A stretch of DNA of 64,000 bases from the NCBI RefSeq assembly GCF_001562055.1, contig NZ_LLWE01000019.1, positions 124,001 to 188,000 on the forward strand, written 5' to 3'. The number at the start of each line of letters is the position of its first letter. The stretch's first letter is position 1. This DNA is from Polycladidibacter stylochi (lineage in GTDB: Bacteria > Pseudomonadota > Alphaproteobacteria > Rhizobiales > Stappiaceae). Shown here one piece after another: positions 13,591 through 27,720 of the stretch. Below the pieces are notes generated by a model. The model worked only from the letters and a program-made list of their open reading frames with translations. It was not told the origin of the DNA and ran no database searches. Position numbers and translations under genes: made by a program.

Positions 13591-13812
13591 TCTTTTAGAA
13601 ACTCAAGCCATCTAATATATCTTCGTCAGGCTGGTATGACCAGTTCACCAGCGCTCATTTAGAAAGCGCAGACACGGCGATCACTTGTGGCGATGAACTA
13701 GCGAAAAGTAACCTATTCATCGCCCATTTTGCTCCATAGCAGTCTGATTGGGAATAGCAGCAACTGCGACATGCTATTTGCTCAACTTGCCACTGTTCAT
13801 GGGACAACCACA

Positions 13813-15222
13813 ATGCATTGCGACCAATTCGCCCTACCCTTAACGATCCACTCGCAAGATGCACTGGTAAGCTGGAATAAATGTGTACTCGCATTTCTGC
13901 AACACGGAAGCAAAACGCCCGACTACCTTCAGGCAACGCTCTCACAAGACGAAAACTTTGCATTGGCCCACGCGGTGCGCGGCTTAATGCTGCTATTGCT
14001 TGCCAAACGAGAATTAGTGCTAGAAGCACATAAGTCACTTCGCAAAGCAAAAGAAATTGCTCGAGCTATCAAGCAAAGTAAACGTGAGCTGGTATATGTT
14101 GATGCGCTTGAGATGTGGCTTGAAGGACGCCCGAGTGCCGCTGCCGCTTGCCTTGAGGCTTGTAATTCCAATTATCCCGATGATGCTTTGATGTTTAAAA
14201 TTGGCCAAGCAATGCGCTTTATTCTTGGCCACTCCTCACGAATGCGGCAGGCCTGCGAAGTAATAGCGCCAAAACAGAATATTGATTTAGCAACCCATGG
14301 GTATGTTTTGGGTTGTTTTGCATTCTCGCTAGAGGAAACCGGAGATTATGTGCGGGCCCGTTCAACCGGATTGGCAGCACTGGAACGAAACCCAAAAGAT
14401 GCTTGGGCTTTGCATGCTGTAGCGCATTGCTATGATATGTGCGGCCAAAGCAAAGAGGGTATTTTGTGGCTAAAGAACAGGCGAGAGCTGTTTGCGAACT
14501 GCAATAACTTTTCCTATCACTTATGGTGGCATTTGGCATTAATGCATCTGGACCAAGGGCAATATGTTGAAGTGCTTGATTTATATGACACAAAAGTACG
14601 TGCAGAGCATACAGATGATTTTCGCGATATTTCCAACGCCGCTTCACTGCTGCTTCGCTTAGAGCTGGAAGGTATTGATGTTGGCGCGCGTTGGCAGGAA
14701 CTGACGGAAATTAGCGAGCATCGTTTAAACGACATGTCAAACATGTTTGCCAGCCTACACTACCTCACAAGTCTACTGGCTGGCGGGGAGCAAACATGTG
14801 TTGAGCAGTTACAAACCTGCCTCAGCCAATTTGCGCACAATACAAGTGACGAATTAGGCGCAACAGCGAAACTTAGTGCCCTGCCAGAGGCTTACGGACT
14901 CGCCCACTTCAGCCATGGCAACTATCTTTCCGCTTATCATTATATGGCCCAAGCCAGACCAAACCTAATTCGTATTGGTGGCAGCCATGCACAACGCGAT
15001 ATTTTTGAACGCATAATTATAGAATCAGCGTTGCGAGCTGGACTTATTACCGAATGCCGCAGCTTACTTGAGGACAGACGGCGCTATCGCGGGGGAGACG
15101 ACCACTTTGGACGCACCCGCCTTACCGCTTGTGAGCGAATGACCGAGCAATTAGCATCTCCATTATACAGCTCCAAGATGCGAACTCGTAGTTATGGCCA
15201 CTCGTTTGGAGTGGGTATTTGA
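13813..15222 (+). CDS. Tetratricopeptide repeat protein, TTC38-like
   Basis: About 469 residues of alpha-helical repeats without signal peptide. The stretches ALAHAVRGLMLLLLAKRE, HGYVLGCFAFSLEETGDY, AWALHAVAHCYDMCGQSKEG and YHLWWHLALMHLDQGQY are characteristic of the TTC38 family, found from bacteria to man and without a settled biochemical function. Longer starts exist (TTG at 13729, ATG at 13771), but the family similarity begins close to the ATG at 13813. The stop codon overlaps the TTG start of opgC (TTGA), so the two proteins are probably made together, suggesting a link to glucan modification that is only inferred. Confidence 0.7.
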   Translation: MHCDQFALPLTIHSQDALVSWNKCVLAFLQHGSKTPDYLQATLSQDENFALAHAVRGLMLLLLAKRELVLEAHKSLRKAKEIARAIKQSKRELVYVDALEMWLEGRPSAAAACLEACNSNYPDDALMFKIGQAMRFILGHSSRMRQACEVIAPKQNIDLATHGYVLGCFAFSLEETGDYVRARSTGLAALERNPKDAWALHAVAHCYDMCGQSKEGILWLKNRRELFANCNNFSYHLWWHLALMHLDQGQYVEVLDLYDTKVRAEHTDDFRDISNAASLLLRLELEGIDVGARWQELTEISEHRLNDMSNMFASLHYLTSLLAGGEQTCVEQLQTCLSQFAHNTSDELGATAKLSALPEAYGLAHFSHGNYLSAYHYMAQARPNLIRIGGSHAQRDIFERIIIESALRAGLITECRSLLEDRRRYRGGDDHFGRTRLTACERMTEQLASPLYSSKMRTRSYGHSFGVGI

Positions 15223-16385
15223 AAGCTGACGCAGCAAGGCCAAGCAAACCTCTATTTGATGATCTGCGCGATATTCGGCTAGATTTTTTCCGTGGGCTTG
15301 CCATGGCAATTATATTTATTGCGCACTTTCCCGATAATCAGTTGACGCTCTGGATACCTGCCCGTTTTGGCTATTCTGATGCTACAGAAATATTTGTTTT
15401 TTGCTCCGGCATGGCTTCAGGACTGGCATTTGGAAAAGTCTATCAGAAAAAAGGATATATACAAGGAACACAAAAGATTAGCTTTCGTATCTGGCAAGTC
15501 TATTGGGCACATATTTGTCAGTTTATCGTTATCGCAAGTATTCTGATTTACCTGACTACGAACTTTTCCTTTAATCGCGATTATGTAGATGATTTAAATC
15601 TCTATCCTTTTTTTAAGGAACCCACATACAATCTTCCAGCCCTGCTATATTTGGGATACGTTCCAAATTACTTCGACATTCTGCCCCTATATCTGATTAT
15701 TCTAGCTGCGATACCGCTTGTTATTGCCGTTGAGCGCTATTTTGGAGCAACTGTGGCAATGTTGTTTTGTCTCTCTGTCTGGGCAGTTTCCCAATTCAGT
15801 GTTTTGGAGCTCTCGGCTGAACCTTGGTCAAATCGAACTTGGTTTTTCAACCCCTTTGGTTGGCAAATACTGTTCTTCGTTGGTTTTGCACTGAGTAGTG
15901 GCTGGATTAAAATTTCACCATTCTTATATCATCGGGCATTGATATGGGCTTATAGCATTGTTTTGCTTATACTTATCCCCTTTGCGCATTATTCAATCAA
16001 TCAAAGTATTCCCAGTTTTCATGGGTTGGCCGAGTTTTTGCGGCAATTGTCTCAAAAAACTGCTTTAGGCCCACTGCGCTTACTGCACTTTTACTGCCTC
16101 GCCATGATTGCTGTATATTTTTCCGGCCCTGAGGGCGCTAGATTGCATTGGCGTGCGCCATTTTCATATTTACAAATCTTCATCGTTGCATTGGGGCGCA
16201 ATTCGCTTGCTGTTTTTATAGCAAGCCTTTTAATTTGCCAGCTACTGGCAATTGTGCGCGACCATAGTTTGGGACGTGGTAGCCTTCTTGTTGACTGTGG
16301 TTTTACTTTAATCGGCTTTCTTGTTCTTTATACGATTACGATTATTAGCCAGAATTATCGGGGGTACTTAAGACGTATTCTATAA
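15219..16385 (+). CDS. opgC: OpgC-type integral membrane acyltransferase (glucan succinylation)
   Basis: A 388-residue protein with about ten hydrophobic helices. The N-terminal DIRLDFFRGLAMAIIFIAHF and the FGYSDATEIFVFCSGM stretch are hallmark OpgC family sequence. OpgC of Rhodobacter sphaeroides succinylates osmoregulated periplasmic glucans. The start is a TTG that overlaps the TGA of the upstream TPR gene, and no in-frame ATG precedes the conserved region. The convergent opgH gene ends 23 bp away, consistent with a shared glucan pathway even though the two are not co-transcribed. The true acyl group is not determined by sequence. Confidence 0.88.
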   Translation: MKADAARPSKPLFDDLRDIRLDFFRGLAMAIIFIAHFPDNQLTLWIPARFGYSDATEIFVFCSGMASGLAFGKVYQKKGYIQGTQKISFRIWQVYWAHICQFIVIASILIYLTTNFSFNRDYVDDLNLYPFFKEPTYNLPALLYLGYVPNYFDILPLYLIILAAIPLVIAVERYFGATVAMLFCLSVWAVSQFSVLELSAEPWSNRTWFFNPFGWQILFFVGFALSSGWIKISPFLYHRALIWAYSIVLLILIPFAHYSINQSIPSFHGLAEFLRQLSQKTALGPLRLLHFYCLAMIAVYFSGPEGARLHWRAPFSYLQIFIVALGRNSLAVFIASLLICQLLAIVRDHSLGRGSLLVDCGFTLIGFLVLYTITIISQNYRGYLRRIL

Positions 16386-16408: not shown

Positions 16409-18385
16409 TCATTCTGCTTTGCCTCTGTTTTCTCGCGCACGTAAGTGTGACAATGTCTCACCCGGATCGCTTTCTTCCGGAATACACCATAATTTTAGAT
16501 TACGTGTCTTGGCACTCAATAGCGGCCCCGATGAATAAACAGCATAAGGAATAGCTATAAGTGGACCAATGACAACAAATGAGAGTAACCAGAGGCTGGA
16601 AAAGCCATAGGCTATCATGACCACCAGCCCAAGCACTCCCCACAGTGTGTGCAACTTCATAAGTCGGTAAGACTGCCCCCAAGTCATTTGATGGTTGCCT
16701 CTATGCTGCCTTGCCCACTTCTTTTTGCCAATTGTAAACAAGCCAATCATAAATTTCGTGTGAGAAAAAGCCAGAATAGGAGATATGAGAACAGAGAGGA
16801 GCAATTCACTAACAGCAGAATAGAGTAGTGCCAACATTCCTCCCATCTGATTACGTCGCTGCTTAGTGAGCAAACAATCAATGAGGCCCAAAAGCTTAGG
16901 GCTCATAACAACACACATCATAATAATCAGCAGTTTTGGCCCCAATTGTGGATCAAAATAAGTCACCCCTCCTGACTTCGTATGTATTTGCCATATTCCT
17001 GTTATTGTAGCGATAGCCACAAACCCGAGCCAAGCGGGAGAGCTGACGTACATTAGAATAGCCATTACAAGCTGTAGTCGGCTTAGCGCATTCAACTTGC
17101 TTTCGCCCAACAGAAGAAAGTATTGCAGGTTCCCATGACACCAGCGTAAATCCCGCTTGAGAAACTCAGAAAGGTTGACCGGGTTTTCTTCATAGCTGGT
17201 GGTCTCAAATGGCCACACACGCACATCATAACCGGCAGCATGCATCAACTTTGCCTCAAGCAAATCATGGCTAAGGATGGCCCCGCCCAGCGGACCACGA
17301 ACGTTAACCGGAGAGAGTAAACAGTATTTTGTAAACGGCTTAATGCGAATAATGGCATTGTGCCCCCAATATGGCCCGTTATCGCCCAACCACCAAGCGG
17401 CTCCTATAGTATGAAGCCGCATGCCAATTCGCATGGACCATTGAAAAATCCTTGCAAATGCGGTTGGTGCAGGTCTTGCAATAACCAAGCCTTGTAGAAT
17501 GCCCAGTTTAGGATCTGCATCCATTTTTTCTATGAGACTACAAATAGATGATGCGGACATATAACTATCAGCATCAAGTGGGATCATGTAAGTATACAAA
17601 TGACCATATTGCTTGACAAATTGCGCGATATTTCCCGCCTTAAAGCCGGTATTCTCAGTTCGCCTTCGATATGTAATTGGCAGTTGAGATTGCCATTTGC
17701 CCTTAAGCTCTTGCAGCATCACGGCTTCATTTTCAATAATAACTGGCTCACTTGAATCACTAAGAATTGCTAATGCAATTTTACTAAGCTGTTTTTGTCG
17801 GTGCAAATCCTCAAGCATTGCATCCAGCTTGGCAGCAACTGAATTGCAGTCTTCATTACGAATGCAAGATACCAAAAGGGTTTGGTGTTTTTCTTTTTCT
17901 AAGCCTTCACCTGCCACTTTTATGGTTGAACATGAAGCGCCGGTGTAGACAATCTTTTCCAGCTTTTTTTGAGGTAATCTGAGAAGTAAAAATCCTAAGA
18001 ATGTATTCCAAAAACCAAATACCAACCAAGGTAACGAGATGCAAAAACAAATGAATAGAGCAAGTTTAGATAAGAGGAAACCGCTTGAAAACAGCGTCAT
18101 ACCCATAAAAGCAACTAGGAATACCAAACTAAGCGAAGTGAGCGTTAGAAAAACCAACCTACGCCGGGTTTGAGTTTTCAGATTTTTTACATACTCGGGA
18201 GATTTATAAAGCTCCTGCCACTCAAGCGTGGCACCATTATTACTCAGCGTGGCGGTATGATGGCACTTGTTGCCATGAACAACCACAGAACTGAGTACTG
18301 TTTCCTTTGAGCTCTTGTGAGCATGGGACTGTGAAGCCTGGTTTTCTGCCTGTGTTTTTGGCAGTTTACGAGAGTACTCACGCAT
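16409..18385 (-). CDS. opgH: Glucan biosynthesis glucosyltransferase OpgH
   Basis: Membrane-embedded GT2 processive glucosyltransferase that builds the linear backbone of osmoregulated periplasmic glucans from UDP-glucose. Visible features are two N-terminal transmembrane helices (about 70-120), the GT-A domain with SDSSEP and the DADSYM metal-binding motif, the acceptor motif KRDLRWCHGNLQY (Q/R-x-x-RW type), and several C-terminal helices. It is about 658 residues, shorter than the 847 of E. coli and closer to the shorter alphaproteobacterial forms. Start uncertain: ATG at 18385, or TTG at 18415. No opgG homologue is in the window, so the branching/periplasmic partner must lie elsewhere. Confidence 0.92.
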   Translation of the reverse strand: MREYSRKLPKTQAENQASQSHAHKSSKETVLSSVVVHGNKCHHTATLSNNGATLEWQELYKSPEYVKNLKTQTRRRLVFLTLTSLSLVFLVAFMGMTLFSSGFLLSKLALFICFCISLPWLVFGFWNTFLGFLLLRLPQKKLEKIVYTGASCSTIKVAGEGLEKEKHQTLLVSCIRNEDCNSVAAKLDAMLEDLHRQKQLSKIALAILSDSSEPVIIENEAVMLQELKGKWQSQLPITYRRRTENTGFKAGNIAQFVKQYGHLYTYMIPLDADSYMSASSICSLIEKMDADPKLGILQGLVIARPAPTAFARIFQWSMRIGMRLHTIGAAWWLGDNGPYWGHNAIIRIKPFTKYCLLSPVNVRGPLGGAILSHDLLEAKLMHAAGYDVRVWPFETTSYEENPVNLSEFLKRDLRWCHGNLQYFLLLGESKLNALSRLQLVMAILMYVSSPAWLGFVAIATITGIWQIHTKSGGVTYFDPQLGPKLLIIMMCVVMSPKLLGLIDCLLTKQRRNQMGGMLALLYSAVSELLLSVLISPILAFSHTKFMIGLFTIGKKKWARQHRGNHQMTWGQSYRLMKLHTLWGVLGLVVMIAYGFSSLWLLSFVVIGPLIAIPYAVYSSGPLLSAKTRNLKLWCIPEESDPGETLSHLRARENRGKAE

Positions 18386-18490
18386 GGGTTTCGTAGCCCT
18401 TTTGTTTTTCTCCAAGTTTTCATGAATTCCTTAGGGTTGCGTTTCATCGCATACTAATAAGCGCCCCACCCCGAAAAACAGGGCGGTTTG

Positions 18491-19468
18491 ATGAAAAAAC
18501 TTGCGCATTCTCTCTGGTATAAAGCACCATATACTATTGATATATTTAAAGAAAACCTATCAAAACCCTCTAGTAACCACGTTTTACTAAAAGGGCTATT
18601 CTCTGGCATAAGCCGCGGCTCTGAAGCCCTTGTTTATCGCGGCGGTGTACCTGAGCAAGAATATAAGCACATGCGTGCGCCTATGCAGCAGGGGGAGTTC
18701 TCGTTCCCTGTTAAATACGGATACTGCTTTGTTGGTGAAGCGGTTGAGGACTTTCAGTACGGGGATAAAGGGCAGCGTTTCTTTAGCCTCGCACCGCATC
18801 AGGACTTCCAGTACATTTCACAGGATATGCTGATCCCTATTCCGCATGACATCCCATCTATTCGCGCCTGCCTGGCCGCCAATATGGAAACAGCTTTAAA
18901 TGCAATATGGGATAGCTCAGCTAGTCTTGCGCAGTCCATAACTATCGTGGGTGGTGGGACTGTTGGCTGTTTGGTTGCTTATTTGCTGGCTCAATTACCC
19001 GCAACAAAAGTTCATCTTGTCGACATCAACCCGAAGCGCAAAACACTGGCTGAAACAATGGGAGGCATTTTTTGCTTACCAGCAATGGCCCCCGAGGAAC
19101 AAGATGTGGTTTTTCATTGTAGTGCCAGTCATCAAGGCTTGCAAACTGCCATTAACTGCGCAGGGTTTGAGAGCGAAGTTGTTGAATTGTCTTGGTTTGG
19201 AGATCAAACTCTCCAATTGAATTTAGGGGGGAGCTTTCATCGTAAAAGACTTCGTTTACTGAGCAGTCAAGTTGGGCAGGTGAGCCAGCGGCAACGGGCG
19301 AGGCTAACCCACGCACAACGATTATCTAAATCTCTAGAGCTACTTAATAACCCCATACTCGATTGTCTTCTTGCGCCACCCATAGACTTTTTTAAAGCCC
19401 CTAAGTTGTTGCCCCCAATACTTGAAGGCAAGACAGACACCCTTTGTCAGACGATAAACTACAGTTAA
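18491..19468 (+). CDS. Zinc-free MDR dehydrogenase, first gene of a pterin-like cluster
   Basis: A 325-residue medium-chain dehydrogenase/reductase. The N-terminal GISRGSEALVYRGGVP and FPVKYGYCFVGEAVE resemble the BchC-like subgroup. The dinucleotide loop is VGGGTVGCLVAYLLA. The Cys/His set that binds catalytic zinc in alcohol dehydrogenases is absent, so hydride transfer without catalytic zinc is expected. It is followed, 25 bp later, by a PTPS-like gene, then a glycosyltransferase and a methyltransferase on the same strand. This implies reduction or oxidation of a glycosylated or alkylated intermediate. Substrate unknown. The ATG at 18491 directly follows a TTG that is less likely to be used. 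Confidence 0.75.
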   Translation: MKKLAHSLWYKAPYTIDIFKENLSKPSSNHVLLKGLFSGISRGSEALVYRGGVPEQEYKHMRAPMQQGEFSFPVKYGYCFVGEAVEDFQYGDKGQRFFSLAPHQDFQYISQDMLIPIPHDIPSIRACLAANMETALNAIWDSSASLAQSITIVGGGTVGCLVAYLLAQLPATKVHLVDINPKRKTLAETMGGIFCLPAMAPEEQDVVFHCSASHQGLQTAINCAGFESEVVELSWFGDQTLQLNLGGSFHRKRLRLLSSQVGQVSQRQRARLTHAQRLSKSLELLNNPILDCLLAPPIDFFKAPKLLPPILEGKTDTLCQTINYS

Positions 19469-19493
19469 CAGAAAAAATATATAGGATTTTTTA

Positions 19494-19898
19494 ATGTTCC
19501 ATATCGAGGTGCGTGATCATATTATGATTGCACGTAAACTACACGGTGACGTTTTTGGGCCTGCAAATATGATACACGGTTCAACATTGATCGTTGATGT
19601 TGCCGTATTTGCCAAAACCTTGGGACCTCATGGAGTTGTTGCAGACCTTGGCAAACTCTCCGAAATCGTAAGGCAGATTCTTTTGCCGCTGAACTACCAA
19701 CTGCTACATGAACTCCCCGCCTTTCAACAACAAAATGCCAGTGTCGAGGGTATCAGTCTCTATTTGCATGATCAGATTAAATCCGAGATTTTAGGGGGCG
19801 GGTTAGATCGCCTTTCTACAGAATTAGATCGGCTACGCATTTTAGTTGAAGAAACCCCAACAGCACGTGGCGGCTACGAAGCTGCACTTCACGAGTAA
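19494..19898 (+). CDS. 6-pyruvoyl-tetrahydropterin synthase/QueD-like protein with altered active site
   Basis: A 134-residue protein with the T-fold layout of PTPS/QueD. Residues that define the enzyme are changed. In QueD, zinc is held by AAH and HGH; here the corresponding stretches read ARK (Arg14 for the first His) and HGS (His28 kept, Ser30 for the last His). The catalytic Cys ahead of HGH is missing, and the Asp-His pair near the LDHxxLN motif is NY (67-68). The C-terminal pterin-anchoring Glu is kept (Glu119 or 120 in VEETPTARGGYE). It could bind a pterin-like ring without the normal lyase chemistry. An AGGA ribosome-binding site lies 8 nt before the ATG. The cluster context points to a specialised paralogue. 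Confidence 0.72.
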   Translation: MFHIEVRDHIMIARKLHGDVFGPANMIHGSTLIVDVAVFAKTLGPHGVVADLGKLSEIVRQILLPLNYQLLHELPAFQQQNASVEGISLYLHDQIKSEILGGGLDRLSTELDRLRILVEETPTARGGYEAALHE

Positions 19899-19901
19899 GT
19901 C

Positions 19902-21098
19902 GTGACTGATATGGGCACAATAAGCACAAAAAAACAAAAACATGCACAAAGTGGTCAATCCAGTCCGCACTCTCTAAACGAGACTACAAATATCTATTTC
20001 GTTATCCCTGGCGATTTAGAAGCCGCAAGTGGCGGTTATGCATATGATCGTCATATTCTGAAGGGACTTAGACAATTAGGGTGGAATGTTTACCACATTC
20101 CGCTCACCGGGGCATTCCCTCTTTGCAGTGCTCAAACAAGGCACAAAGCCAATGCAAAGCTAACAGACCTTCCTGACAATGCCCTCGTTTTGGTAGACGG
20201 CCTTGCCTATGGAGCATTACCTGAAGTCATTTCAATACATGCAAAACGGCTTAACTTCATTACTCTAGTTCATCACCCCTTATTTTTAGAGGCCGGACTC
20301 GGAGAAAAAGAGCAAAAAGCCCTTCACTCTGCAGAAAAACTAGCCCTGCAACATGCGCAATTTCTGATAACAACCAGCGATGAAACACGAAAAACTGTCG
20401 TTAAGAACTTTTCTTATCCCTATGATAAAATTGTGGTGATTGAGCCTGGTCTTGATTTACCTGCCTTTGCAAAAAATCCGTCTCATTTTGACCATCTGAG
20501 AACGAGACAAACTTCAGCCAGTGTTCCTATGCGTCTTTTGTGTGTTGGCTCTGTTGTTGCCCGCAAAGATCAACTCAGCCTCATCAAGGCCGTTGCAGGA
20601 TTACCTGACGTATTTGAAAACCAAAAAAGCTGGCGCCTTGACATAATAGGTGATTTGAATTTTCAGCCCTCCTATGCGCAAAAAATGCATGAGGTTGTTG
20701 AAGAGTTGGGATTACAAAACTACGTTCACTTGCATGGAAAGGTGGGCGAGGCGCGGCTTAAATCTTTCTATGAAAGTGCCGATTTATTTATCCTGCCCAG
20801 CCACTACGAGGGCTACGGCATGGCCTTTTGGGAAGCTCTATCCTACGGGCTGCCTGTTATAGCGACATATGAAGGTAGTGTTGCCGCACAATTACCCCGC
20901 GAAGCCACACTATTATTTCGCGCAGGAAATAGCCAACAACTACGGCAATCAATTGAATCTTTAGCCGCTACCCCCTCACTTCTTTCAGCAATGAGCCAGG
21001 CAGGGCACCGAGAATGCCAGAAAAAGCCTAGCTGGGAAAAAGTTACCGCTTTGATGTCGCACCACTTAAAACTATTTGTAGAGAGGTTAAAGCCATGA
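19902..21098 (+). CDS. Family 4 glycosyltransferase of the pterin-like cluster
   Basis: A 398-residue GT-B glycosyltransferase, cytoplasmic. The N-terminal half starts IYFVIPGDLEAASGGYAYDR, the usual acceptor side of GT4. The donor side has LLCVGSVVARKDQLSLIKAV, then VHLHGKVGEARLKSFYESAD and the E-x7-E motif in HYEGYGMAFWEALSYGLPVI. The start is GTG at 19902, four bases after the PTPS-like stop codon; an ATG at 19911 is the alternative. The stop overlaps the next start (ATGA), so it is translationally coupled to the methyltransferase. Given its partners it probably glycosylates a small heterocycle or its carrier rather than a polysaccharide; this is inference. Confidence 0.82.
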   Translation: MTDMGTISTKKQKHAQSGQSSPHSLNETTNIYFVIPGDLEAASGGYAYDRHILKGLRQLGWNVYHIPLTGAFPLCSAQTRHKANAKLTDLPDNALVLVDGLAYGALPEVISIHAKRLNFITLVHHPLFLEAGLGEKEQKALHSAEKLALQHAQFLITTSDETRKTVVKNFSYPYDKIVVIEPGLDLPAFAKNPSHFDHLRTRQTSASVPMRLLCVGSVVARKDQLSLIKAVAGLPDVFENQKSWRLDIIGDLNFQPSYAQKMHEVVEELGLQNYVHLHGKVGEARLKSFYESADLFILPSHYEGYGMAFWEALSYGLPVIATYEGSVAAQLPREATLLFRAGNSQQLRQSIESLAATPSLLSAMSQAGHRECQKKPSWEKVTALMSHHLKLFVERLKP

Positions 21099-21913
21099 GC
21101 TCGTTCAGCGAGGAGTGGTTACGATTACGATTTCCAGCAGACAAGAAAGCTCGAAACAAACGGCTCGATAAGCTCTTTAGCCGGCACATTCTGCGTTTTT
21201 GCGAGACACAAAGCACGGTTAGAATCCACGACCTGGCTGCTGGGAGTGGCGCGAGCCTTAAAGCGCTATTACCCCACCTTGTTCAGTGTCAAGAACAGCT
21301 ATCCTGGTGCTTTTATGATAATGATCCCAAGCTCTTGGCAGTTAGCAAAGAAATCGCTCAAAGAGAGGCGCTTTCTATCAGCCCCATTATTTGCGATTTA
21401 AACATACCCGAATTCTTCCAAACACATAGTTTGGTGCCAGCTGTAACCAGCTCTGCTTTTTTTGACCTTGTGAGCGAGAGTTGGATTGAGCTCCTTGCCA
21501 CATACTTGTTAGGTGTTGGCTCAACCGCCCTTTTCTCTCTTACAATTGATGGCCGCTATGAGCTTTCCCCGCCGCATGCATTCGATACTCAAGTCATGTT
21601 TGCAGTACGCCAACACCAGCAAAAAAACAAAGGTTTTGGCCCCGCTTTAGGGTGCGAGGCAGCGGCCTTTATGATTGAGTGCTTCAACAAAGTCGGCTTT
21701 ACTGTACTCACAGGTCAATCTGACTGGTTGCTAGATTATCACGACAATCAACTCCAACAGGAATTGATACAGGGTTGGTATAGTGCAGCGCTGCAAATGG
21801 GGTTGGGAGAATCCACCTTGGAAGTCTGGCGTGCTTTTCGATTGGCAGCCCTATCAAAACAGGAATCTAAAATAATGCTGGGCCATTGCGATATTCTCAT
21901 TAACCCCAATTAA
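21095..21913 (+). CDS. Class I SAM-dependent methyltransferase of the pterin-like cluster
   Basis: A 272-residue Rossmann methyltransferase. Motif I is seen in RIHDLAAGSGASLKALLPHL, a motif II-like acidic strand in WCFYDNDPKLLAV, and the rest of the core follows (FDLVSESWIELL). Its start overlaps the glycosyltransferase stop (ATGA), so both are made from one message. It converges on the RibD-type reductase gene 19 bp away. The methyl acceptor is unknown. No part of the sequence suggests a nucleic-acid or protein methyltransferase in particular. Confidence 0.75.
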   Translation: MSSFSEEWLRLRFPADKKARNKRLDKLFSRHILRFCETQSTVRIHDLAAGSGASLKALLPHLVQCQEQLSWCFYDNDPKLLAVSKEIAQREALSISPIICDLNIPEFFQTHSLVPAVTSSAFFDLVSESWIELLATYLLGVGSTALFSLTIDGRYELSPPHAFDTQVMFAVRQHQQKNKGFGPALGCEAAAFMIECFNKVGFTVLTGQSDWLLDYHDNQLQQELIQGWYSAALQMGLGESTLEVWRAFRLAALSKQESKIMLGHCDILINPN

Positions 21914-21932
21914 AACCGAAGCGAATGAGGAT

Positions 21933-22736
21933 TCAGGAGTTTAAGTGTAAATCGGCTAATAAATCCGTCCCCAGTGAGTACCAATTTGTTTGGGGACGCC
22001 GCGCTCTTGAAAGACTATCCGTTGGAGGCAAAGCAATACCCTTTTTGCCAGAGCCAATAATCAACGGTGCTATAATTAGATGGAGTTGGTTTAACAACCC
22101 TGTTTGATAGAAGTTTGAAAGTGTCCAAGCTCCCCCTTCAATAAGTACCGTTTGAAAATCTTGCAAACTTGCTTTGATAGCTGCACAACAAATGCGGCCC
22201 TTATCATTAAGCGGCAATATCCTGTGTTCAACAAAGTCGGGGTATTGGGGCACTAGCCCCTCGGAAGTTAAAACAATTTTGCGACAACCGTCATCTTGCA
22301 GACATGTGCTACGAAGGGGCAAACGACCAGAGGGGTCGACAATAATTCTGGCGGGACTATTACCTTGTACATGACGAACCGTCAGTTGCGGATTGTCTTT
22401 TATAGCTGTCCCCACACCAATGACAACCGCATCCACAAGTGCACGCAAACGGTGTAAATGCGCAAGTCCTTCTTGAGCGTTTATGTAATAGGAATCGCCT
22501 GTATCGGTCGCTATTAATCCGTCCAGTGACTGGCCCAGTTGTCCAATAAAATATGCGGATCTGGCCTGACAAACCCCTGCAAAACACTGGGCATAACCAG
22601 CAGCTGGGGGCGGCTTTTTTTCCATTTTTGCTTTCAAGACATTCTGCCACACTTCATCTGTAATTACAGGAGATTGAAAATCAGCCTCAAGTACCGGGTT
22701 GGATTTTCTGGGCTGGGTAGCTAACGACTTTTGCAC
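21933..22736 (-). CDS. RibD C-terminal-type (dihydrofolate-reductase-fold) reductase
   Basis: A 267-residue protein. Its last 210 residues are the RibD_C/HTP-reductase fold: GQLGQSLDGLIA, DAVVIGVGTAIKDNPQLTVR, PARIIVDPSGRLP, VLIEGGAWTLSNFYQTGL and a terminal IAPLIIGSGKKG, all conserved NADPH and substrate contacts. The deaminase half of full RibD is absent, replaced by a short N-terminal extension. GTG at 22736 is the likely start. It points toward the pterin-like genes on the other strand, from which its stop is 19 bp away. RibD reductases act on 5-amino-6-ribosylaminouracil phosphate; a related ribosyl-heterocycle substrate is plausible for this set. Confidence 0.83.
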   Translation of the reverse strand: MQKSLATQPRKSNPVLEADFQSPVITDEVWQNVLKAKMEKKPPPAAGYAQCFAGVCQARSAYFIGQLGQSLDGLIATDTGDSYYINAQEGLAHLHRLRALVDAVVIGVGTAIKDNPQLTVRHVQGNSPARIIVDPSGRLPLRSTCLQDDGCRKIVLTSEGLVPQYPDFVEHRILPLNDKGRICCAAIKASLQDFQTVLIEGGAWTLSNFYQTGLLNQLHLIIAPLIIGSGKKGIALPPTDSLSRARRPQTNWYSLGTDLLADLHLNS

Positions 22737-22881
22737 GAGACAACCTTTACGTATTTAAGTTGCCGTATTGAAGCGAAATTCCACTAAAAAAGTAACTCTG
22801 ATATCCTGAGAATTGCATGGGTTGCATTCATCTCATAGGCTCAAAGCATATTCTGCTTCGTTGCCTGCTAGGAGAGAGAGC

Positions 22882-23418
22882 ATGCAAGCTGAAACCGTAA
22901 AGTATTCGCGCCCTGCCCGTGCCTATCACTGGATAACTTTTATATTGGTCCTGGTTGTTTTGCCGCTCGGCTTTTTTCTGGGTGATTTACCCAAGGGGCA
23001 AATACAGGGTATAGGCTATAACTGGCATAAGTCTATCGGTTTATTGGTGCTTGTTGTGTTGCTCTTTCGCTTGGCTTATCGCCTCGGGCACCCAGCACCT
23101 GCATTGCCAGCATCTGTACCTAAATGGCAAGTGAACCTGTCACGCGGTATTCATATTTTGCTATATATTTGTCTGATCGTTCAACCACTTATCGGCTGGT
23201 TTGCAACGGCGTCATTTGGTGCCCCAGTACCTTTTTTCAGTTTATTCACCATACCAAATTTTATTGAAAAAAACGAAGCTTTAGCCAAGCAATTGTTTCA
23301 GGTTCACTCAATCCTAGGGTGGGTACTTGTTATAGCAATCTCCCTTCATATTTTAGGTGGGCTTTATCATTGGCTAATTGCTAAGGATGGTGTTTTTCAA
23401 CGCATGACTTCTAATTAA
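22882..23418 (+). CDS. Cytochrome b561 family protein
   Basis: A 178-residue four-helix membrane cytochrome. Candidate haem ligands are the His in RAYHWITF, the His in WHKSIGLL, and the His residues in VHSILGWV and LHILGGLYHW, matching the CybB layout. The frame extends upstream to 22813, but AGGAGAGAG just ahead of the ATG at 22882 marks the better start. The gene is divergent from the RibD-type reductase and lies alone before the cobalamin genes. It probably transfers electrons between quinone and a periplasmic partner, which is not identifiable here. Confidence 0.88.
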   Translation: MQAETVKYSRPARAYHWITFILVLVVLPLGFFLGDLPKGQIQGIGYNWHKSIGLLVLVVLLFRLAYRLGHPAPALPASVPKWQVNLSRGIHILLYICLIVQPLIGWFATASFGAPVPFFSLFTIPNFIEKNEALAKQLFQVHSILGWVLVIAISLHILGGLYHWLIAKDGVFQRMTSN

Positions 23419-23454: not shown

Positions 23455-24234
23455 TCACACTAGGTTAACAACGGTGTCAACAAGCTGGTCATACTCTGAG
23501 AACTGATGAATATAGGCTGGCACCGTTATGGGCATATGTTTGGGGGGCCTTGCAAGCATATGAACCGGCAGGCCCAACTTTCGTGCGGCCTCAATTTTTG
23601 CGTATCCTGCAGTACCACCACTATTTTTACAAAGCACTCCTTCAATATCATGCTGTTTTAAATAACTTATCTCCTGAGCAATGCTCTCATTTGGTTTGGA
23701 AAGAATGAGTATACTTTGTTCAGGAAGGCTGTTCGCTTCTGGTGGTTCCACCATGCGCATATGCCAAACAACATCAGTCCTTGATTTCAGTGCTATGATT
23801 TGCTTACGGCCGATAGCGGCGAATATACGGCTGTTGGGAGCTATGGCAGCGACGGCTTCTTGAAGACTGGTAAATTGAAGCCATTGATCGCCGGTTTGTG
23901 ATTTCCATGGTGGGCGCTCATAACGTAGGTAATGACAAGGGGTTTGTTGGCATGCTTGCAGCGCATTGTTACTTATTTGTGCGGCAAAAGGGTGTGTTGC
24001 ATCAACTACATAGCTTATATCATGAGCCTTTAGATACTGCTGTAAACCTTGCGTACCACCAAAGCCGCCAGTGCGTGTGGTCACACCCAGCTCTTTTGGT
24101 AAGGTTGTTACACCGGCAAGAGATGCAATTATATCAAAGCGGCATGTCTGTTGTAGTTTTTTAATAATTATCCGCGCATCGCGTGTACCCGCTAATATCA
24201 AGAGCTTTGGCCGAGAGTTAGGGGCTGTCGTCAT
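23455..24234 (-). CDS. cobK: Precorrin-6A reductase (CobK/CbiJ)
   Basis: NADPH-dependent reduction of the macrocycle during corrin assembly. The 259-residue protein starts with the expected LLILAGTRDARIIIKKL loop and has VVDATHPFAAQIS, FAAIGRKQI and VLCKNSGGTAGYAKI, all diagnostic for the family. Its ATG overlaps the stop codon of cbiD (ATGA), so it is made from the same message. In a cobalt-early pathway the substrate would be cobalt-precorrin-6A (CbiJ). Confidence 0.93.
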   Translation of the reverse strand: MTTAPNSRPKLLILAGTRDARIIIKKLQQTCRFDIIASLAGVTTLPKELGVTTRTGGFGGTQGLQQYLKAHDISYVVDATHPFAAQISNNALQACQQTPCHYLRYERPPWKSQTGDQWLQFTSLQEAVAAIAPNSRIFAAIGRKQIIALKSRTDVVWHMRMVEPPEANSLPEQSILILSKPNESIAQEISYLKQHDIEGVLCKNSGGTAGYAKIEAARKLGLPVHMLARPPKHMPITVPAYIHQFSEYDQLVDTVVNLV

Positions 24235-25382
24235 GTTTTCGCCTTTTGAGCAAAGGGGACCTGCGCCAATTGTTGGCCTGCCCTATCCACCACGATCACC
24301 TCTACAGCAACAGGTGCACCTCGTAAGATGTCCAGTGCACTCGCTTGAGCTTTTTGTGCAATGATTGCCGCCAGCGGGAAGTCACAGGATAACGCCATAT
24401 CGCTTAATTGCTTCATTGTATTGGCATTTTGGCAAAGCTCTTGCAGCTCTAGCGGGGCATCACACTGAGACAACAGTTTGCCTAGCCAGACAAAATCCAG
24501 CGTCGAGCGGGCCGAATGCAAATCCATTGCCCCTTGCGCCAGCTTGGTCAGCTTGGCGATACCACCGGCTACCGTGAGCTTTGGTACCGGATGAGCACGC
24601 AAATATTTAAGCAAACCGCCAGCAAAATCCCCCATATCTAAGTAGGCATACTCTGGTAATTGGGGGTATTGTTCTCTTAAACAGTCTTCAGATGTTGCAC
24701 CTGTTGCTGCGGCAACATGGTTTAAACCGGCGGCTCGGGCCACATCCACTCCACGGTGGATTGATGCTATCCACGAAGCACATGAAAACGGACGCACAAT
24801 ACCGGTGGTTCCCAAAACCGAAAGCCCACCAATTATCCCTAGGCGGGGATTCATTGTCTTGAGCGCAAGCTCTGCACCGCCTGCTATTGAAATGGTGGCA
24901 ATAACATCAAGCCGTTGATTGTGGGCCTTTGCAACTTCGGTAAGCGCTTTCTCAATTATTCGCCTTGGTACCGGGTTGATCGCCGGTTCCCCCACTTCAA
25001 CTGGCAAACCTGCTCTAGTGACAGTACCAACCCCTTCGCCTGCCACGAATACCAATCCGCACCCTTCGGCACCCCGTTCAATACGGGTTTGAATGAGCGC
25101 GCCATGGGTAACATCGGGGTCATCACCCGCATCTTTAACAATAGCCGCCTCAGCCCAGCAAGGGTTGTTGCCCTCTGCAACCGCCTCATAAGCCAAAGCA
25201 AATGCCGGCGTATCCCCGCGTGGTAGTGTAATCGACACGGGGTCGGGGAATTGCCCTGTTAAAAGCCTGGCATAGGCTGCTTTAGCCGCCGCGGCTGCAC
25301 ACGCGCCTGTTGTCCAGCCGGTACGTAATGCTGCTTTAGTGGCCTGTTTTTTCCCATTTGTGGAATTTGCCGTTTCGCTCAT
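24231..25382 (-). CDS. cbiD: Cobalt-precorrin-5B C(1)-methyltransferase
   Basis: A 383-residue CbiD, the C1 methylase of the cobalt-early (anaerobic) route. LRTGWTTGACAAAAAKAA, GDDPDVTHGALI, GEGVGTVTRAGLPVEVGEPAINPVPR and the GGLSVLGTTGIVRPFS stretch are diagnostic. The open frame runs further to 25550, but the ATG at 25382 matches the family start; the extra 56 residues have no family similarity. The start of cobA lies 137 bp away on the opposite strand, so the shared region must hold both promoters. I saw no cobalamin riboswitch boxes in it. Confidence 0.95.
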   Translation of the reverse strand: MSETANSTNGKKQATKAALRTGWTTGACAAAAAKAAYARLLTGQFPDPVSITLPRGDTPAFALAYEAVAEGNNPCWAEAAIVKDAGDDPDVTHGALIQTRIERGAEGCGLVFVAGEGVGTVTRAGLPVEVGEPAINPVPRRIIEKALTEVAKAHNQRLDVIATISIAGGAELALKTMNPRLGIIGGLSVLGTTGIVRPFSCASWIASIHRGVDVARAAGLNHVAAATGATSEDCLREQYPQLPEYAYLDMGDFAGGLLKYLRAHPVPKLTVAGGIAKLTKLAQGAMDLHSARSTLDFVWLGKLLSQCDAPLELQELCQNANTMKQLSDMALSCDFPLAAIIAQKAQASALDILRGAPVAVEVIVVDRAGQQLAQVPFAQKAKT

Positions 25383-25519
25383 GAGCGGACTATAGCGCAA
25401 ACTATTGCAAAACCAAGCTGTTTCAAACCAGCTGACTATATTCACTATTATAGCGAATTTCATCGGGACGACATTAATGCACACTTGCCTTGTTTTAAAT
25501 TGCCTGTACATTCGCGGAG

Positions 25520-26377
25520 ATGGAATTAAAAGAAGCGTTGCCCTTGGCAAACTATAGTTTGCCCCAATTCGAGTGTGGCTGGGTTTGGCTGGCTGGTGCT
25601 GGCCCCGGAGACCCGGGCCTGTTGTCTGTTCACGCCTTAAATGGCCTGCAACATGCTGATATTATTGTTTATGACGCCTTGGTCGACAAACGGATTCTTG
25701 GCTGGGCGAAAGCAAGTGCCCAACTGGAATATGCCGGAAAGCGTGGCGGCAAGCCCTCACCCAAACAGCGTTCCATCTCGCTACGGCTTATCGAACTTGC
25801 CAAACAAGGCAAACGGGTTTTGCGCCTCAAAGGCGGAGACCCATTCGTATTCGGCCGCGGTGGGGAAGAAGCATTGGCACTCGTTGAGGCTGGCATACCT
25901 TTTCGGGTTATCCCCGGTATAACCGCCGGTATTGGCGGGCTTGGCTATGCTGGCATCCCTTCCACTCATCGTGGTATTAATCAGGCTGTTACTTTCCTAA
26001 CTGGGCACGATCAAAACGGTGTAACGCCAGATGCACTCAATTGGCAAGCATTGGCACAAGGCTCACCTGTACTGATTATGTATATGGCGATGAAACACCT
26101 GAAAAGTATTCGCGATAAACTTATAGCTGGTGGACGAAGTAAAACTGAAGCCATGGCTTTTGTTTGCAATGCCTCTCTTCCAAACCAAAAGGTCTTGCAA
26201 ACTACTCTTGGTAATTGTGTCGAGGATACCGAAAAAGCCGGTATTGCACCACCTGCTATCGTTGTTTTGGGAGATGTTGTGCACTTGCGCCATGGGCTCG
26301 ATTGGCTGGGCGCTATGCATGGCAAAAAGCTACAAGCGCATCCGCTGGAAGGTCTTGCACTGGAGGCCGCACAATAA
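25520..26377 (+). CDS. cobA: Uroporphyrinogen-III C-methyltransferase
   Basis: SUMT, making precorrin-2 from uroporphyrinogen III with two SAM-dependent methylations; first committed step to cobalamin (also shared with siroheme). A 285-residue protein with the glycine-rich start VWLAGAGPGDPGLLSVHAL, the P-loop-like RLKGGDPFVFGRGGEE, PGITAGIGG and THRGINQAVTFLTGH. No CysG oxidase/ferrochelatase domain is attached. The cobB start overlaps the stop (TAATG). Confidence 0.95.
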   Translation: MELKEALPLANYSLPQFECGWVWLAGAGPGDPGLLSVHALNGLQHADIIVYDALVDKRILGWAKASAQLEYAGKRGGKPSPKQRSISLRLIELAKQGKRVLRLKGGDPFVFGRGGEEALALVEAGIPFRVIPGITAGIGGLGYAGIPSTHRGINQAVTFLTGHDQNGVTPDALNWQALAQGSPVLIMYMAMKHLKSIRDKLIAGGRSKTEAMAFVCNASLPNQKVLQTTLGNCVEDTEKAGIAPPAIVVLGDVVHLRHGLDWLGAMHGKKLQAHPLEGLALEAAQ

Positions 26378-27720
26378 TGTCGGTAAACGGGCTGGTTATT
26401 GCAGCGCCCTCCTCGGCCACCGGTAAAACCACCATTACATTAGCGCTGTTACGAGCGCTAAAAATAGCAGGAATATCAGTTAGTTCTGCAAAATCTGGCC
26501 CCGATTATATCGACCCTGCCTTCCACCGCGCAGCCAGTGGACGGCCCTGCTTTAACCTTGATGCCTATGCCATGAGTGCCGCCCAACTCTTGGGGGTGGC
26601 GCAAACCGTTTCACAAGATAGCGAATTGTTGATTGTTGAAGGGGCCATGGGCCTGTTTGATGGTGCTGCAAATGGGCAAGGCTCTGCAGCAGATCTTGCC
26701 GAAACACTTGGTTTTCCTGTAGTTCTTATAGTTGATTGCCAAAAGCAAGCGCAATCTGTTGCCGCCGTGGTACATGGTTTTGCCAGTTTTCGCAAAACTC
26801 CCCGTATCGCGGGGATAATCTTGAACCGTGTCGGTTCACTGCGGCACGAAAAAATGCTGCGCCAAGCAATCGCACCGCTCGGGCTACCGGTATTAGGCGC
26901 TGTCTACCGTGAGGTCGAATTGGAATTACCAGAGCGCCATCTTGGTTTGGTACAGGCCAGCGAAATGCCTGAGCTGGAAAGCTTTTTAACACGGGCGGGA
27001 AAGATAGCACAAAAGCAAATTGATCTGGCTGCACTACGGGCCTTGGCGCGTCCGCTGCAAGCTCCTATTGCTGCCAAACTCAGCGAAAATTCAAAGCAGC
27101 TTCTGGCACCACTGAGCCAAAAAATCGCCATTGCCAAAGATGTGGCCTTTGCATTTTCCTACCCACAGCATATTGCGGAATGGAAACGGCAGGGCGTTGA
27201 AATAACATATTTTTCGCCGTTAAATGATGAAGCCCCCTCTCAAAATGCAACTGCAATATTTTTGCCCGGTGGTTACCCCGAGCTCTATGCGCAGCGACTC
27301 TCAAGGGCGTTGAACTTTAAAGCGGCCATGCAGAGTGCAGCACAGCAAGGTACCTTGATTTATGGCGAGTGTGGCGGCTTCATGTGCCTTGGCGAGCAAC
27401 TGATTGATAAAGCAGGTGTCACCCACCCCATGTTGGGCTTGTTGCCACTTACAACCAGCTTTGAAAAACGAAAATTACATTTAGGATACAGGCAGTTACA
27501 ATTAACAGACCGGCAGAAAACCGCGCCAGTTCTGCCTTGGCAACATACCTTGGTCGCCCATGAGTTCCACTATGCTTCCATTATTGAGCAAGGGGCAGCA
27601 CAGCCATTATTCAACGCAGTAGATGCACTTGGCATACCACTGGAGGCCATGGGCCTGCAAAAAGGCCGTGTTGCAGGATCGTTTGCCCATATTATCTGCC
27701 AGAGTAAGGTTGATGAGTAA
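26377..27720 (+). CDS. cobB: Cobyrinic acid a,c-diamide synthase
   Basis: ATP- and glutamine-dependent amidation of side chains a and c (CbiA/CobB). A 447-residue protein: N-terminal P-loop (SSATGKTTITLALLRAL), SGPDYIDPAFH, EGAMGLFDG, and a C-terminal class I glutamine amidotransferase-like domain with the nucleophile in YGECGGFMCLGEQL and the terminal His in SFAHIICQS. The frame could reach back to 26215 inside cobA, but the ATG at 26377 fits the family and the TAATG overlap. The ATP-binding and glutaminase sites both look intact. Confidence 0.94.
   Translation: MSVNGLVIAAPSSATGKTTITLALLRALKIAGISVSSAKSGPDYIDPAFHRAASGRPCFNLDAYAMSAAQLLGVAQTVSQDSELLIVEGAMGLFDGAANGQGSAADLAETLGFPVVLIVDCQKQAQSVAAVVHGFASFRKTPRIAGIILNRVGSLRHEKMLRQAIAPLGLPVLGAVYREVELELPERHLGLVQASEMPELESFLTRAGKIAQKQIDLAALRALARPLQAPIAAKLSENSKQLLAPLSQKIAIAKDVAFAFSYPQHIAEWKRQGVEITYFSPLNDEAPSQNATAIFLPGGYPELYAQRLSRALNFKAAMQSAAQQGTLIYGECGGFMCLGEQLIDKAGVTHPMLGLLPLTTSFEKRKLHLGYRQLQLTDRQKTAPVLPWQHTLVAHEFHYASIIEQGAAQPLFNAVDALGIPLEAMGLQKGRVAGSFAHIICQSKVDE

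Follow-up and report, generated by a model that had tools for sequence, protein, structure and literature searches.

The window examined here, a stretch of 64,000 nucleotides from the genome of Polycladidibacter stylochi (contig NZ_LLWE01000019.1, positions 124,001 to 188,000; genome of 3.68 Mb in 43 contigs, 99.98% complete), contains a gene set that includes a PTPS-like protein with a tunnel fold. This locus is the genome's copy of a widespread conserved cluster, of which it is a strongly diverged member and no local oddity. The core of the cluster encodes an MDR-type dehydrogenase, the PTPS-like protein, a GT4 glycosyltransferase and a methyltransferase (MT), and the cluster probably makes a sugar-bearing compound related to pterins or flavin precursors. 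The protein family, represented by SCO6650 of Streptomyces coelicolor and by the signature FGPAQ, and its link to genes for PF00925 and RibD_C proteins were already known. New here are the MDR-PTPS-GT4-MT core, two mutually exclusive flanking modules and a fast drift of the PTPS-like protein in Pseudovibrio.

Conservation of the gene set

A sequence-only reading of the window had grouped the four core genes and a convergent RibD-type reductase as one set; all five open reading frames are intact, and a search of genomes for the gene order upheld the grouping. PTPS-like matches were present in 91 of 297 sampled genomes of the order, or in 89 (about three in ten) after removal of two weak matches in G112 and G216 (3.1e-4 and 7.2e-4), which were excluded as another PTPS class in a decision taken after seeing the data. 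Searching with the cluster MDR gave orthologs in 90 of the 297 genomes at a cut-off of E ≤ 1.4e-48, also chosen after seeing the data (next match at 1.9e-35). An MDR ortholog was found in all 89 PTPS-positive genomes compared with 1 of 208 PTPS-negative genomes, the single MDR-only genome (G111) having a partial match, and the two genes lay less than 1 kb apart in 86 of the 89. Homologues co-occur, and the scattered distribution that the same reading had named as the opposing outcome did not appear. At the level of the phylum, the SCO6650-type family was present in 27 of 398 sampled genomes.

Gene neighbourhoods were compared across 40 stretches from sampled genomes, 80 named loci, six plasmid records and the window; these 127 loci reduced to 123 distinct ones, 100 of which extended for 4.5 kb or more ahead of the PTPS gene and 6 kb or more behind it. 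The 80 named loci are the best among 582 confirmed matches, so nearer relatives are over-represented, and neighbour genes were assigned by tblastn at 1e-5, so that some of the absences may be misses. The full core was present in 90 of the 100 loci (90 of 101 if a lone second copy removed by hand, L051, is counted), the individual partners MDR, GT4 and methyltransferase occurring in 98, 97 and 95, respectively. A RibD_C reductase lay within the flanks in 63 loci and a GTP cyclohydrolase II gene near the PTPS-like gene in 42, 39 of which also had RibD_C. Core genes were also found in Beta- and Gammaproteobacteria, Streptomyces and Microbacterium, and named hosts include Roseibium, Rhodoplanes, Xanthobacter, Rhizobium, Polynucleobacter, a Methylopumilus metagenome-assembled genome, Thiodictyon, Microbacterium and Streptomyces. 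In some betaproteobacterial loci, L073 and L075 among them, the methyltransferase gene lies beyond an MdoH-like gene and not after GT4; no methyltransferase gene was found in L074 or L077. The association is more than chance: as a control, 20 stretches surrounding other PTPS/QueD-like genes were compared, and none held a partner gene, one of these stretches being only 8.2 kb long and just seven giving a match to a PTPS query at 1e-5.

Family and residues of the PTPS-like protein

The PTPS-like protein matched the Pfam PTPS model over its cut-off (7.8e-17). A 38-sequence family profile, in which the window protein is itself one row, found SCO6650 (PDB 3d7j) at 8e-53, with the next solved chain at 7.8e-7. 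Against this profile the window protein, as one of its rows, scored 176.7 bits, and proteins of the 27 phylum genomes scored 172.5–231.6 bits, followed among the 398 genomes by a match at 47.9. The predicted structure (pLDDT 95.6) resembled 3d7j most closely (TM 0.94, root-mean-square deviation 1.0), then QueD/PTPS structures at TM values of up to 0.78; dihydroneopterin aldolase (8evk, 2.4e-4) was also among the structural matches. The window protein shares family and fold with SCO6650, a PTPS homolog, and differs from it in having Arg14, Asn25 and Ser30 in place of His, Gln and Ala. SCO6650 reportedly contains no zinc and shows no PTPS activity.

Escherichia coli QueD (PTPS-I) has the same tunnel fold (4ntk, TM 0.78) and equivalents of His28 and Glu120, but is only 20% identical to the window protein. 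In the alignment of the two, from which the QueD residue numbers were counted, His16, Cys27, His33 and Asp70-His71 of QueD are replaced by Arg14, Ala24, Ser30 and Asn67-Tyr68, and His31 and Glu110 are kept as His28 and Glu120. In QueD, His16, His31 and His33 are zinc ligands, Cys27 is catalytic, Asp70 and His71 form the Asp-His pair and Glu110 anchors the ring; the window protein has no such Cys, no Asp-His pair and an incomplete zinc triad, as the sequence-only reading had set out. The pattern extends to the family: in alignment A1 (the window protein plus 37 of 40 candidate sequences), all 37 relatives have His at position 14, Ala at 24, His at 28, Ala at 30 and Glu at 120, and all lack Asp and His at positions 67–68. 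All 38 sequences retain Glu120, the motifs EVRD, FGPA, HGA and TTE are strictly conserved across A1, and the family as a whole is without the third zinc His, the Asp-His pair and the catalytic Cys. His14 is kept in all 14 other Pseudovibrio proteins, most of which have Leu at position 30, and Arg14 was seen only in the window copy; since the other losses are common to the family, Arg14 is this genome's own addition. The earlier description of the protein as a degenerate PTPS therefore holds for the lost residues, but the state belongs to the whole of a known, uncharacterised family, Arg14 being the one of these losses that is local.

A group of 561 sequences preferentially carrying the signature FGPAQ has been named PTPS-IV (cluster-node 62), with PF00925 and PF01872 in its gene neighbourhood, in the section devoted to it in PMC5445326 (2017). 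The relatives of the window protein have the same signature and the same two neighbours. That section makes no mention of MDR, GT4, methyltransferase or MdoH, and lists PF00925 as GTP cyclohydrolase I (FolE2), whereas by Pfam it is GTP cyclohydrolase II here. The portion of PMC5041015 on these groups places PTPS-IV in archaeal F420 biosynthesis (as unpublished work) and gives the role of PTPS-V as unclear; an F420 role is not suggested by the neighbourhood seen here. The window protein reads FGPAN, compared with FGPAQ in 37 of 37 A1 relatives and FGPAS in 9 of 14 other Pseudovibrio proteins, and is therefore not filed under PTPS-IV to the letter. With PANMIHGS at the corresponding site, it contains neither the CxxxHGH motif of QueD (PTPS-I) nor the CxxxxxHGH and ExxHGH motifs of PTPS-II and PTPS-III. 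The ligand alignment places it in no active group, in line with the earlier view that it is no ordinary QueD/PTPS; database records name family members 6-carboxytetrahydropterin synthase, a label that is contradicted by the residues as aligned here.

Partner enzymes and GTP cyclohydrolase II

The MDR protein matched ADH_zinc_N below the cut-off (25 of 31.8 bits) and gave no match at E ≤ 0.01 to ADH_N, the catalytic domain of zinc-dependent alcohol dehydrogenases; a sequence search of solved structures returned weak matches to polyol dehydrogenases. The GT4 protein matched Glycos_transf_1 over its cut-off (1.1e-26), with general matches only among solved structures. For the methyltransferase no Pfam match was obtained at E ≤ 0.01; its predicted model (pLDDT 96.2) matches S-adenosylmethionine (SAM)-dependent methyltransferases, and two of three relatives scanned passed the Methyltransf_25 cut-off. 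The GT4, RibD_C and methyltransferase proteins of the window carry the motifs of their families; the methyltransferase alignment, A2, comprised 32 of 50 candidates in addition to the window protein.

The RibD_C protein matched its Pfam model over the cut-off (4.4e-30), and the Pfam scan detected no deaminase domain, so the two-domain architecture of bacterial RibD is absent. Its nearest solved structure is 2azn (4.5e-22), an archaeal reductase of riboflavin synthesis, which likewise has a reductase domain without a deaminase and acts on an undeaminated pyrimidine; the likeness is one of sequence, and the window protein sits in a different pathway. A paired test of RibA (GTP cyclohydrolase II) against RibD_C on the tree yielded only two pairs on supported branches and so had no power.

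The presence of GTP cyclohydrolase II in 42 of the 100 loci qualifies the earlier statement that no standard folate, queuosine or riboflavin gene accompanies the set: the statement fits the window, where the gene is missing, and does not extend to the relatives. Of 47 readings of cluster RibA, 42 were in the right frame and those of L038, L039, L059, L062 and L066 were ignored. The three Cys residues are kept in all 42 copies as judged by eye, and the Tyr position of the KxRAY motif is occupied by Tyr in 39, Leu in two (L040 and L109) and Met only in the Streptomyces copy L154. Work on SCO6655 is said to suggest that the Met form gives a formyl-keeping product. On that meaning of the residue, we rejected the notion that cluster RibA proteins are formyl-keeping in general, given 39 Tyr forms and a single Met. 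In L154 (13645-15138), on a plasmid of Streptomyces fungicidicus, the Met-type GTP cyclohydrolase II stands beside a creatininase-family gene. A general link between the two is spoken against by L080, L089, L113 and L146, each of which combines a creatininase-like gene with a readable RibA, all with Tyr.

A proposed pathway

Guanine, pterins and riboflavin precursors that have not been deaminated present a 2-amino-4-oxo edge, and it is this edge that the conserved Glu of tunnel-fold proteins holds. GTP cyclohydrolase II together with a reductase lacking the deaminase would keep this edge, and a GTP-derived pyrimidine or pteridine is therefore proposed as the substrate. We tentatively suggest, at slightly less than an even chance, that the cluster encodes a dedicated pathway in which such a pyrimidine is reduced in its ribosyl chain, glycosylated and methylated with the 2-amino-4-oxo edge kept; the genes, their families, their association and the lost residues are observed, whereas the product, the steps and their order are all inferred. 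The route would start from the product of GTP cyclohydrolase II, a 2-amino-4-oxo pyrimidine bearing a phosphorylated ribosylamino chain, whose ribosyl chain the RibD_C enzyme may reduce, the 2-amino group staying in place. The tunnel-fold protein, left with the ring-anchoring Glu and a His, would bind the 2-amino-4-oxo edge and might carry out a metal-free ring or side-chain step closer to that of dihydroneopterin aldolase than to that of PTPS. The MDR dehydrogenase would oxidise or reduce a side-chain hydroxyl or the ring, GT4 would attach a sugar and the methyltransferase a methyl group. A membrane module, either MdoH-like or composed of a CDP-alcohol phosphotransferase and a flippase-like protein, may then hand the product to a glycan or lipid.

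Several observations weigh against this pathway. No GTP cyclohydrolase II lies nearby in 58 of the 100 loci and no RibD_C in 37; at least one core gene is absent in 10; and L051 (G167:C8:118688-119077) is a second PTPS copy of the family with no core partner nearby. The genome under study has just one PF00925 match, covering the second half of a RibBA-like protein (L158, G000:C34:87925-89034) which, as judged by eye, is without the zinc-binding Cys residues, and a search of this genome with cluster RibA, run with no positive control, gave no match. As no intact copy was seen in the genome, the proposed start of the route is not visible here. Each of the 12 sampled genomes of the taxonomic family has a single PF00925 match, the Cys residues having been read in the copy of this genome only. 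The substrates of the MDR, GT4 and methyltransferase families cannot be read from sequence, and the window PTPS has drifted so far that its role may be getting lost.

The likeness to the pterin glycosides of cyanobacteria and Chlorobium lies, in the parts of PMC5683033 and PMC13259868 that describe them, in the idea of a glycosylated pterin; the Chlorobium glycosyltransferase acts on tetrahydrobiopterin (PMC5683033). In open-licence PMC papers we found no description of the MDR-PTPS-GT4-MT core or its product, and no function for the SCO6650/FGPAQ family. The family occurs in about three in ten sampled genomes of the order, yet its product is given in no source found. With a defined core and neighbours, the list of substrates is short, the knock-out targets are clear and the question is testable.

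Divergence of the PTPS-like protein in Pseudovibrio

Among 47 columns of A1 conserved in at least 90% of the other sequences, the window PTPS departs at 17, compared with at most 6 (median 1) in the other A1 rows. Lower shares were found for the proteins encoded around it, with departures at 6 of 83 conserved columns in MDR, 9 of 67 in GT4, 4 of 47 in RibD_C and 17 of 131 in MdoH. The genus is taken as Pseudovibrio by inference, since the PTPS sequence of the same-genus locus L175 is identical to that of L129, which is named Pseudovibrio flavus. Other Pseudovibrio PTPS proteins depart at 6–11 of the 47 columns, and identity to congeners is 37–41% for the window PTPS compared with 76–81% for RibBA. 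The PTPS-like gene is present in 15 of 16 genomes of the genus, including that of the window; G662, a genome of 3.7 Mb and thus similar in size, is alone among the 16 in having no PTPS match. In Pseudovibrio the gene seems to evolve under altered or relaxed constraint, most markedly in the window copy, which is intact nonetheless. These figures are what would be expected if the PTPS gene were decaying or being put to another use in this species with the other cluster genes still functional, a possibility that deserves mention but that we think unlikely: the reading frame is intact, the fold is predicted with high confidence, and Glu120, His28, FGPA and the gene order are all kept. The fast-drifting Pseudovibrio copies form a natural series for structure-function work.

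Two alternative flanking modules

In 66 of the 100 loci an MdoH-like gene occupies the divergent place upstream of the core, and in 25 a CDP-alcohol phosphotransferase gene lies nearby; none has both and nine have neither. Flippase-like and sulfatase-like genes are confined to loci with the CDP-alcohol phosphotransferase, being present in 17 and 19 of these 25, respectively. On the PTPS tree the split between the modules requires as few as two changes when the nine loci with neither are set aside, and nine changes when these are treated as a third state. As the split largely follows lineage, the mutual exclusion is weak as independent evidence.

This arrangement, together with an OpgC-like gene beside the window MdoH, lends itself to a different interpretation, in which the locus is a cluster for a surface or periplasmic glycan or glycolipid with the MdoH-like protein or the CDP-alcohol phosphotransferase as the main enzyme, the PTPS-like protein has lost pterin chemistry, and GT4, the methyltransferase, MDR and the tunnel-fold protein decorate sugars. 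The genome has one MdoH-like gene, whose product gave no match in a sequence search of solved structures. MdoG (OpgG, PF04349) was not found in this genome by a search in which the E. coli positive control matched, and the combination of OpgG with OpgH typical of E. coli osmoregulated periplasmic glucans is thus absent from it. E. coli needs OpgG, according to the part of PMC11842490 concerned; in Caulobacter, by contrast, opgH is the sole opg homolog, OpgG is lacking and a cyclic glucose hexamer is made, as stated in the relevant part of PMC11389396. The argument that MdoH without MdoG cannot make glucans is weakened accordingly, and because Caulobacter makes its cyclic glucan with opgH alone, the absence of MdoG does not settle the role of the MdoH-like protein. 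Overall we judge the glycan interpretation improbable: nine loci have neither module, RibD_C and GTP cyclohydrolase II recur, and Glu120 is kept in every sequence of A1. We know of no sugar role for RibD_C or GTP cyclohydrolase II.

The modules also allow a bolder form of the heterocycle pathway, which we regard as equally improbable as it stands. This would be a pterin-like route without GTP cyclohydrolase I, in which the GTP cyclohydrolase II product is reduced undeaminated, passes through a metal-free tunnel-fold step, is glycosylated and methylated, and ends up attached, through one of two interchangeable modules, to a membrane lipid or glucan. If true, it would represent a new class of envelope-linked heterocycle across Proteobacteria and Actinobacteria.

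Catalyst or carrier

With the zinc triad incomplete and neither Cys nor Asp-His in any of the 38 A1 sequences, and with the ring-anchoring Glu retained, the tunnel-fold protein could also be a subunit without catalytic activity that binds or carries a pterin-like intermediate on which the other enzymes act. We consider this quite improbable, because the strict conservation of EVRD, FGPA, HGA and TTE across A1 suggests an active site, and metal-free tunnel-fold enzymes, such as dihydroneopterin aldolase, do exist. An ordinary queuosine, folate or biopterin enzyme misjudged through divergence is rejected as extremely improbable on residues and neighbours, the matches to the QueD (30.8 bits) and 6PTHBS (28.6 bits) models lying far below their cut-offs (89.25 and 125.5 bits), the catalytic residues being absent and the partners standing near none of the 20 other PTPS/QueD-like genes.

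Gene layout and neighbouring genes

The MDR, PTPS-like, GT4 and methyltransferase genes are co-directional, with intergenic gaps of 25, 3 and -4 bases (Table 1).

Table 1. Genes of the cluster and its recurrent neighbours, in positions of the window.
Feature	Position	Strand	Remarks
MDR-type dehydrogenase	18488 (TTG; ATG at 18491)-19468	+	HPHQ and ANMETALNA.WD motifs conserved; usual N-terminal zinc-ADH match absent
SCO6650-type PTPS-like (tunnel-fold) protein	19494-19898	+	without Cys/Asp-His; Arg14, Ala24, His28, Ser30, Glu120
GT4 glycosyltransferase	19902-21098	+	EGYGMAFWEA motif present
SAM-dependent methyltransferase-like protein (MT)	21095-21913	+	4-base overlap with GT4
RibD_C-type reductase without deaminase domain	21933-22736	- (convergent)	nearest solved structure archaeal 2azn
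Cytochrome b561-type membrane protein	22813-23418	+	recurrent neighbour, 52/100 loci
MdoH/OpgH-like membrane glycosyltransferase	16409-18415	- (divergent from MDR)	recurrent neighbour, 66/100 loci; pathway membership uncertain

Further downstream, open reading frames at 23455-27720 resemble a cobalamin gene run in translations read by eye, no family search having been made. On the other side of the cluster, a TPR protein and the OpgC-like acyltransferase are encoded at 13729-16385, beyond the MdoH-like gene, and the same pair lies near the cluster in L045 and L058.

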